Origin: Chitinophagaceae bacterium
GTDB taxonomy: Bacteria; Bacteroidota; Bacteroidia; Chitinophagales; Chitinophagaceae
DNA: 64,000 nucleotides
Assembly: GCA_004322425.1 (NCBI GenBank)
Contig: SCVJ01000024.1
Coordinates: forward strand, 1 to 64,000
Direction: 5' to 3'
The notes beneath the pieces are model-generated. The model saw only the letters and a program-made list of their open reading frames with translations, was not told the DNA's origin and did not search any database. Positions 26,302 to 26,710 of the stretch are shown here, one piece after another. The position numbers were made by a program, and so were the translations under genes. Within the stretch, counting starts at the first letter, position 1, and every line of letters begins with the position of its first letter.

Positions 26302-26376
26302 GGGAGTTTAGCTCAGCTGGTTCAGAGCATCTGCCTTACAAGCAGAGGGTCGGCGGTTCGAACCCGTCAACTCCCA
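26302..26376 (+). tRNA. tRNA-Val (anticodon UAC)
   Basis: The cloverleaf is complete. The acceptor is GGGAGTT/AACTCCC, the D arm GCTC-GAGC, and the anticodon stem TCTGC/GCAGA with loop CTTACAA giving anticodon UAC at positions 34-36. The T arm is GGCGG-TTCGAAC-CCGTC. The discriminator is A and CCA is not encoded. A terminator follows immediately. The last 28 bases of the gene are repeated 329 bp downstream beyond the GIY-YIG gene. Confidence 0.95.
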
Positions 26377-26381
26377 CAAAA
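26349..26381 (+). repeat. Left copy of 33-bp direct repeat (tRNA-Val 3' end)
   Basis: The repeat runs from the variable loop of tRNA-Val(UAC) through the T arm and acceptor strand plus five following bases. It is identical at all 33 positions to 26678-26710. Together the copies bracket the GIY-YIG gene, like att sites of an element inserted at a tRNA 3' end. Confidence 0.85.
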
Positions 26382-26405
26382 GATCTCAACTAGAGGTCTT
26401 TTTTT
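26381..26405 (+). terminator. Intrinsic terminator of tRNA-Val(UAC)
   Basis: AGATCTC, loop AACTA and GAGGTCT (7 bp with one G-U pair) are followed by six T. It ends 2 nt before the GIY-YIG start codon, so the nuclease gene lies directly behind a terminator. Confidence 0.8.
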
Positions 26406-26407
26406 AT

Positions 26408-26665
26408 ATGTGGACTTTTTATATTCTATACTCCGGTGCGAAAAATTCTTATTATATCGGATTCACGGGTGGCTTGCTATTAGAAAGACTTCGAAAACAT
26501 AATACACACCACAAAGGGTTTACAGGTAGTGTTGGCGATTGGGAAGTAAAATATACAGGGGTTTACCAAGCAAAAGAAGAAGCAACCAGGCGAGAACGAC
26601 AAGTAAAAAAATGGAAAAGCCGAAAACTGGTGGAAAAGCTCATTGGTTCAAAGCACTCCGACTGA
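26408..26665 (+). CDS. Small GIY-YIG endonuclease whose 3' end overlaps a tRNA relic
   Basis: This 85-residue protein is a stand-alone GIY-YIG domain. Motifs are FYILYS (4-9), YYIGFT (15-20), the catalytic Arg region LERLRKHN (R27) and EATRRERQVKKWKSRK with the metal-binding Glu near 63. Such small nucleases are common in Bacteroidota and their role is unclear. The last residues, KLIGSKHSD, are translated from sequence resembling the D arm and anticodon stem of a tRNA. No TAnnTTTG promoter lies between the tRNA terminator and this gene, so it may depend on read-through. The direct repeats on both sides suggest it arrived as a small insertion. Confidence 0.85.
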   Translation: MWTFYILYSGAKNSYYIGFTGGLLLERLRKHNTHHKGFTGSVGDWEVKYTGVYQAKEEATRRERQVKKWKSRKLVEKLIGSKHSD

Positions 26666-26705
26666 TAAGTCGGAGGAGTCGGCGGTTCGAACCCGTCAAC
26701 TCCCA
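26638..26705 (+). pseudogene. tRNA relic (lacks a matching 5' acceptor strand)
   Basis: From GCTC at 26638 the sequence follows tRNA-Val: the D arm (GCTC, TGGTTCA, AAGC), an anticodon-type hairpin CTCCGAC-TGATAA-GTCGGAG, then a T arm and 3' acceptor identical to tRNA-Val(UAC). The seven bases where the 5' acceptor strand should be (26629-26635) match only 3 of 7. The anticodon loop has an extra base if a normal 5-bp stem is drawn. It is therefore unlikely to be a working tRNA. The D-arm and anticodon part doubles as the coding end of the GIY-YIG gene. Confidence 0.7.
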
Positions 26706-26710
26706 CAAAA
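26678..26710 (+). repeat. Right copy of 33-bp direct repeat (tRNA 3' end)
   Basis: Identical to 26349-26381. It contains the T arm and 3' acceptor of tRNA-Val(UAC). Recombination between the two copies would remove 329 bp, including the nuclease gene, and leave tRNA-Val(UAC) intact. Confidence 0.85.

Follow-up and report, generated by a model that had tools for sequence, protein, structure and literature searches.

A GIY-YIG nuclease gene that stands behind a tRNA-Val gene in the genome of a Chitinophagaceae bacterium is, with a probability that we put at roughly two in three, the core of a minimal tRNA-targeted homing cassette, in which the nuclease would cut a tRNA gene, pseudo-tRNA sequences would act as homology arms, and an intact tRNA carried along would rescue the function of the gene that is cut. 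The locus lies in a window of 64,000 nucleotides (the whole stretch of DNA that was analysed, from contig SCVJ01000024.1), where only the right half of such a cassette is preserved, so that the window alone could not reveal the captive tRNA or the split target. Both are read here from related loci across the phylum Bacteroidota.

An earlier note on this DNA had described a perfect 33-bp repeat of the 3' end of tRNA-Val(UAC) that brackets a small GIY-YIG nuclease as the sole gene, and every coordinate of this description was recovered with ARAGORN, a repeat search, open reading frame analysis and Pfam (Table 1). The repeat copies are identical over 33 bp, or match over 36 bp with one mismatch, at a spacing of 329 bp; the runner-up direct repeat within 4 kb has 27 nt at 74%. 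The ATG of the nuclease follows directly on the T run of the terminator, and the same order of tRNA, terminator and ATG is found at loci L093, L005 and L253. The second repeat copy belongs to a longer, degenerate tRNA, here called PsiR, of which it forms the 3' part. PsiR overlaps the C-terminal codons of the nuclease and contains a hairpin whose loop has the TGA stop of the nuclease as its first codon. Rfam did not score this PsiR as a tRNA at E<=0.1. A left counterpart, PsiL, is absent from the window, where PsiR only is kept. The 329-bp unit defined by the repeat has its counterpart, in relatives, in a tandem unit of about 310-380 bp.

Table 1. Features of the tRNA-Val locus in the window
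Feature	Position	Strand	Basis
Intact ("captive") tRNA-Val(UAC)	26302..26377	+	ARAGORN (TAC); Rfam RF00005, 70.5 bits
33-bp repeat, copy 1 (tRNA 3' part and AAAA)	26349..26381	+	Repeat search
Terminator-like hairpin and T run, 3' of the tRNA	26381..26405	+	Read from sequence
85-aa single-domain GIY-YIG nuclease	26408..26665	+	ORF; Pfam PF01541, E=1.9e-13; PDB profile matches
PsiR, pseudo-tRNA right part without 5' acceptor strand	26637..26707	+	Sequence; anatomy of relatives
D-arm-like part of PsiR, AGCTCATTGGTTCAAAGC, coding the nuclease C-terminus	26637-26654	+	Sequence
Perfect 7-bp hairpin CTCCGAC-TGATAA-GTCGGAG at the place of the anticodon arm	26656..26675	+	Sequence; hairpins of relatives
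T arm and 3' acceptor strand of PsiR	26678-26706	+	Sequence
33-bp repeat, copy 2	26678..26710	+	Repeat search
329-bp unit, predicted to be removable by recombination between both repeats	26382..26710	+	Repeat spacing of 329

A minimal nuclease element tied to tRNA genes and devoid of an integrase had also been proposed, and a survey of relatives supports this and shows that the element is recurrent. Among 195 genomes of the same family, with flanks retrieved for nearly all matches, 63 encode relatives of the nuclease, many of them in tandem with a period of about 330-380 bp, and 109 of the 131 copies stand behind a tRNA, either directly or within an array. Scanning contigs with Val-type proteins yielded 80 further loci, nearly all in Bacteroidota records; the few that carry other taxon names may be mis-binned. 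A profile search at the level of the phylum matched 224 of 395 Bacteroidota genomes at E<=1e-12, with at most 14 matches per genome, and 26 of the 30 best phylum-wide matches were likewise linked to a tRNA. When all copies were pooled and de-duplicated (260 nucleases), a tRNA of the same strand was found to end no more than 200 bp upstream for 163 of them, at a median of 49 bp to the domain; the remainder comprised 56 copies in tandem behind another copy, 11 at contig ends and 30 with no tRNA link. With a few dozen tRNA genes in the megabases of a bacterial genome, such linkage is far beyond chance. The elements use 14 tRNA classes and number from 0 to 14 per genome.

The anatomy of the element was studied in a sample of 152 loci with an intact tRNA. 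A tRNA 3' half downstream of the nuclease (PsiR) is present in 96 of the 147 testable loci, which bears out the earlier expectation that copies beside other tRNA genes would carry a matching 3' segment, and a tRNA 5' half upstream of the tRNA (PsiL) is present in 55 of 145; neither was found in shuffled flanks. The intact tRNA sits between the two halves. PsiL runs from the 5' acceptor strand through the D arm and a hairpin that takes the position of the anticodon arm into the T arm, without the 3' acceptor strand, and forms arrays of 1 to 7 units spaced about 65-110 bp apart. Hairpins of at least 6 bp occur in 89 of 112 PsiR (3.2 expected from shuffles) and in 89 of 97 PsiL. The part of the tRNA that the hairpin replaces differs between groups: it is the anticodon arm in the Val, Ala, Lys and Arg elements, the 3' side after the anticodon loop in one Met group, the stretch between anticodon loop and T stem in Asp, the 5' side of the anticodon arm in Asn, and the D arm in a Pro element (L111), with an additional hairpin in the T arm in L018 and the Ser loci. 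We infer that the replaced region marks the region that the nuclease cuts. Two counts weigh against a homing cassette, namely that both halves occur together in only 36 of 140 testable loci and that the copy numbers of PsiL and nuclease correlate weakly (Spearman 0.17, p=0.035). A strict one-for-one nesting, with equal numbers of PsiL and PsiR, was rejected, as it holds in few loci.

This geometry does not agree with the proposal that the tRNA 3' end is the target. In relatives, the insertion point lies in the interior of the tRNA (the anticodon arm, sometimes the D or T arm), PsiL and PsiR are mirror images of each other, and the outer flanks are the tRNA's own promoter side and terminator. 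The element does possess a tRNA tail, as had been suggested, but this tail is one half of a hairpin-marked pseudo-tRNA rather than a spare 3' end, and the complete tRNA appears to be borne by the element as a captive copy.

Across 33 relatives, the catalytic-type residues Y, YxG, R, H and E are invariant, and the nuclease, with a dN/dS of about 0.04-0.2 between species, is under purifying selection. Its clades follow the tRNA class and not the host: on a tree of 111 nucleases (75 columns, deep forks poorly resolved), the tRNA class requires 22 changes (minimum 13) compared to 63.8 in shuffles, none of 200 of which was as low. The Ala, Ser, Asn and Pro(ggg) nucleases form one clade each, and several elements in one genome fall each within the clade of its own tRNA class. 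The nearest solved structures by profile belong to UPF0213 and SLX1 proteins (PDB 1zg2, 1ywl, 7cq2). Proteins of the UPF0213/YhbQ type and SLX1 resemble the nuclease in their single GIY-YIG domain and are related to it by sequence; we know of no tRNA linkage for them, and the five tRNA-unlinked GIY-YIG proteins of the genomes studied here form a separate clade, which provides a natural control.

Orthologous sites are occupied in some genomes and empty in others. The clpS/tRNA-Val(TAC) site is occupied in the window, G021 and G029, and clean-empty in G002 and G010, which have a single 5' half, a single 3' half and a terminator-like sequence and lack the hairpin. The nuclease is present at this site in the window and in G021; G029 has PsiL, the tRNA and PsiR there, and its contig bears an intact nuclease a short distance away. 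In G093, from the genus of the window, valS, clpS and tRNA-Val follow each other without a nuclease, but the contig ends 65 bp past the tRNA. The empty tRNA-Val site that the earlier note had asked for thus exists, although no exact pair of empty and occupied sites differing by 329 bp was found among close strains; recent near-identical transfer was not seen among the compared species, which are diverged. In one genus, 10 species share the outer flanks of the tRNA-Met locus and differ in its arrays. In locus L093 (G071), the promoter side is followed by three PsiL, the tRNA-Met, three nuclease-PsiR units and the downstream flank, with all six hairpins identical and one terminator shared by the nuclease-PsiR units; L253 has one PsiL, two nucleases and extra solo PsiR, and L252 has one nuclease. 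The tRNA-Met site of L259 (G202) holds a single tRNA and no nuclease, a state that may be a loss, because the upstream sequence resembles a decayed PsiL. From the comparison of empty with occupied orthologous sites, it follows that the insertion falls inside the bounds of a tRNA gene.

Whether the captive tRNA is foreign and the outer halves are the native, displaced gene can be read at few loci, as the acceptors of PsiL, captive tRNA and PsiR are identical (homogenised) in most. The outer halves of L152 form a better pair between themselves (GGGAGCT/AGCTCCC) than with the captive tRNA (GGGAGTT/AACTCCC), which, as far as acceptor pairing can tell, is suggestive of outer halves that would represent the split target. 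The same tendency is seen in L157, L155, L029 and L023, in a test that is informative in only about five loci. The PsiL of L260 has an acceptor of the type CGCGAA versus CGCGCGG in the captive tRNAs, and L152, L157 and L260 are the loci at which a foreign captive tRNA is suggested. A further peculiarity of L260 and of L261 (G203 and G204) is that the arrayed locus has two intact tRNA-Met genes at a distance of about 200 bp, a pairing that would fit a repair event that duplicated the captive tRNA.

The mechanism that we propose starts with a nuclease that would recognise the DNA of one kind of tRNA gene (tRNA-Val(UAC) in the window) and would cut inside it, usually at the anticodon arm. The 5' tRNA end of the break would recombine with PsiL and the end with the T arm and 3' acceptor with PsiR. 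Both arms have the same tRNA sequence with the putative cut region swapped for the hairpin; they lack that region because the hairpin replaces it, and should escape cutting. Repair would then place a copy of the full cassette, from PsiL through the intact tRNA and the nuclease to PsiR, in the target and so might carry it from strain to strain. The target tRNA would be split, but the cassette carries a complete tRNA and function would therefore be kept, in a "home-and-rescue" design. If the captive tRNA were cut in turn and repaired from a sister copy, one more PsiL and one more nuclease-PsiR would result, and nested or tandem arrays on both sides would be expected because the rescue tRNA can be re-targeted. 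Recombination between halves could delete the nuclease and leave scars or an intact tRNA; in the window, PsiL may have been lost by recombination between identical 5' halves, or may never have been present. The captive tRNA is a problem for this scheme, since it is intact, looks cuttable and has no protection that we could find, so that an occupied allele would hardly escape cutting, unless the nested arrays are themselves the outcome of such cutting. The near-constant use of a strong hairpin as the replacement is also left unexplained by the mechanism.

The closest system in its working is SegB, a free-standing GIY-YIG homing endonuclease in the tRNA region of phages T4 and T6 (PMC13096335; reviewed for T4 in PMC2988022), which likewise lies beside tRNA genes and forms tandem arrays. 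SegB cuts within tRNA genes in vitro, and recombination produces tandem arrays of tRNA and segB, with many tRNA isotypes in phages, an amplification that defeats a tRNA-cleaving defence (PMC13096335). The present element could by analogy be an amplifier kept for the benefit of the host, in which cutting in the tRNA region would drive amplification and thereby raise tRNA dosage or restore tRNAs after the action of tRNA-cleaving toxins or defences. Arrays are common in this family and the doubled tRNA-Met genes of L260 and L261 would agree with such a role, yet the arrays mostly multiply pseudo-tRNAs and nucleases around an intact tRNA that is usually single, dosage is not raised because the hairpins usually replace the anticodon arm, and the window protein had no match in PADLOC; we regard this explanation as unlikely. 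SegB also differs in being a phage protein for which pseudo-tRNA halves, hairpin-marked arms or a captive rescue tRNA have not been reported. The present element is set apart from SegB as described by its place in bacterial chromosomes, its 85-aa protein, its clades sorted by tRNA class and its arrays, which mostly repeat pseudo-tRNA and nuclease and not the intact tRNA, and the window protein has no close phage relative (no match by tblastn at E 1e-3 in 50,697 phage records and no PHROG family at 0.01). A phage origin was rejected on the same grounds, together with the finding that only three viral contigs encode relatives.

It is improbable, in our view, that the element is now immobile, i.e., an ancient, vertically inherited nuclease beside tRNA genes whose repeats arose by ordinary tandem duplication and gene conversion. 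The identical acceptors of PsiL, captive tRNA and PsiR in most loci are what local conversion would give, and a host function would agree with the purifying selection; a host gene would not, however, be expected to show patchy occupancy of orthologous sites, 14 tRNA classes with class-specific clades, copy numbers that vary as widely as those reported above, or locus-specific hairpins. Still less credible is a system at the level of RNA, in which the nuclease would have RNA as its substrate and transcripts of the pseudo-tRNAs would be its decoys or antitoxins. In the loci read, PsiL lies between the tRNA promoter and the tRNA and is therefore probably co-transcribed, and folding of the captive tRNA benefits modestly from the hairpins (mean native-pair probability of 0.38 with the hairpin versus 0.32 with the anticodon arm and 0.34 with shuffled sequence, n=48). 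This effect is small, and the captive tRNA folds worse with PsiL present than alone (0.79); the relatives with solved structures, UPF0213 and SLX1, are DNA structure nucleases, and neither the split-gene geometry nor the empty sites are predicted by an action on RNA. A role of the hairpin as an RNA insulator was discarded for the small size of the same effect. An integrase-type element at the tRNA 3' end (a satellite, an integron-like element or the remnant of an ICE) can be dismissed almost entirely: the duplicated tRNA 3' end does resemble att sites, but the nuclease is the single ORF of the 329-bp unit, the other tandem units, at about 310-380 bp, leave no room for an integrase, the split into PsiL and PsiR with an internal hairpin is unlike att structures, and relatives are almost absent from viral collections.

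Group I introns, some of which encode homing endonucleases, occur in bacterial tRNA genes (PMC3984707) and share with the homing cassette proposed here the tRNA gene as insertion target. They differ in that the functional tRNA is here uninterrupted and rescue would come from a second complete tRNA and not from splicing; a tRNA intron was rejected for the window locus, where the tRNA-Val is continuous and no Rfam intron matches. Nearest in logic are the mORFs of fungal mitochondria, in Allomyces atp6 and in Glomus atp6, atp9, cox2 and nad3, in which an endonuclease has entered a gene and supplied a substitute for its 3' end (PMC3630166). The target stays functional with the displaced native 3' end downstream, and the mORF of atp9 is of the GIY-YIG type (PMC3630166). 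Both kinds of element have duplicated parts of the target gene on either side of a nuclease, with one copy functional; the mORFs, however, inhabit mitochondrial protein genes and replace only the C-terminus, whereas the present element places a whole tRNA between hairpin-marked pseudo-halves, in bacteria. Free-standing homing endonucleases in general are matched by the conserved nuclease domain under selection (Pfam, invariant residues, dN/dS), by sites that are either occupied or empty (clpS/tRNA-Val and the tRNA-Met locus) and by the specific target that related nucleases share (22 versus 63.8 changes). Synthetic home-and-rescue gene drives place a nuclease and an intact copy of an essential target between homology arms, with the rescue copy recoded and cut-resistant. 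The cassette resembles them in combining a nuclease with an intact target copy between such arms and differs in that those drives are designed and their rescue resists cutting, whereas the captive tRNA looks cuttable.

Hairpin-marked pseudo-tRNA halves, a complete captive tRNA and a bacterial chromosomal family sorted by tRNA class distinguish the element from both SegB and the mORFs, and these phage and mitochondrial precedents were all that we found in a literature search whose scope left out preprints and most subscription journals. On balance, we lean slightly towards a natural home-and-rescue family that extends through the phylum, in which each nuclease lineage would be devoted to one tRNA gene, split its target, supply an intact replacement tRNA, carry hairpin-marked arms and repeatedly rewrite tRNA loci in more than half of the sampled genomes. 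If this is correct, the cassette, with one gene of about 85 codons and fragments of tRNA, would be among the smallest self-spreading DNA elements known, would live within essential tRNA genes throughout a bacterial phylum and would represent a natural counterpart of home-and-rescue gene drives. That it has escaped notice would be due to annotation, in which nothing but a small "GIY-YIG nuclease" appears beside a tRNA. It would also explain the pseudo-tRNA arrays and assembly breaks at Bacteroidota tRNA genes, and would make available small nucleases whose targets, specific to tRNA genes, are predictable and which could be assayed at once.

Several minor observations were made along the way. 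Draft contigs repeatedly stop exactly at arrays (L255-L258, L261-L264 and further contig ends); copy numbers are therefore counted too low, and Bacteroidota drafts may lack tRNA genes. The hairpin motif was dropped as a signature of the element alone, as hairpins of the form TCCCGA..TCGGGA are enriched genome-wide and some are terminators: the whole genome G199:C1 has 140 of them compared to 2 for a reversed control pattern, and near 3,651,000 several follow each other about 95 bp apart in the manner of a PsiL array. In L018 (1780-1835), L203, L127 and L087, the pseudo-tRNA tail has a hairpin in the T arm in addition to that of the anticodon arm. In L004 (G173:C4), the tRNA before the nuclease lacks the 5' half and ARAGORN names the tail tRNA-Ile(tat), which points to a decayed element. 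A nuclease-free pseudo-tRNA with a 5' acceptor, D arm, hairpin and partial T arm, resembling either a scar or a PsiL, lies just upstream of an intact tRNA-Val in L134 (G195:C447, about 190-320). Finally, in L135 (G196:C256, 2833-3150), from the genus of the window, a GIY-YIG nuclease begins a few bases after a tRNA-Val(GAC), with a PsiL-like hairpin upstream of the tRNA and the contig end close behind the nuclease.
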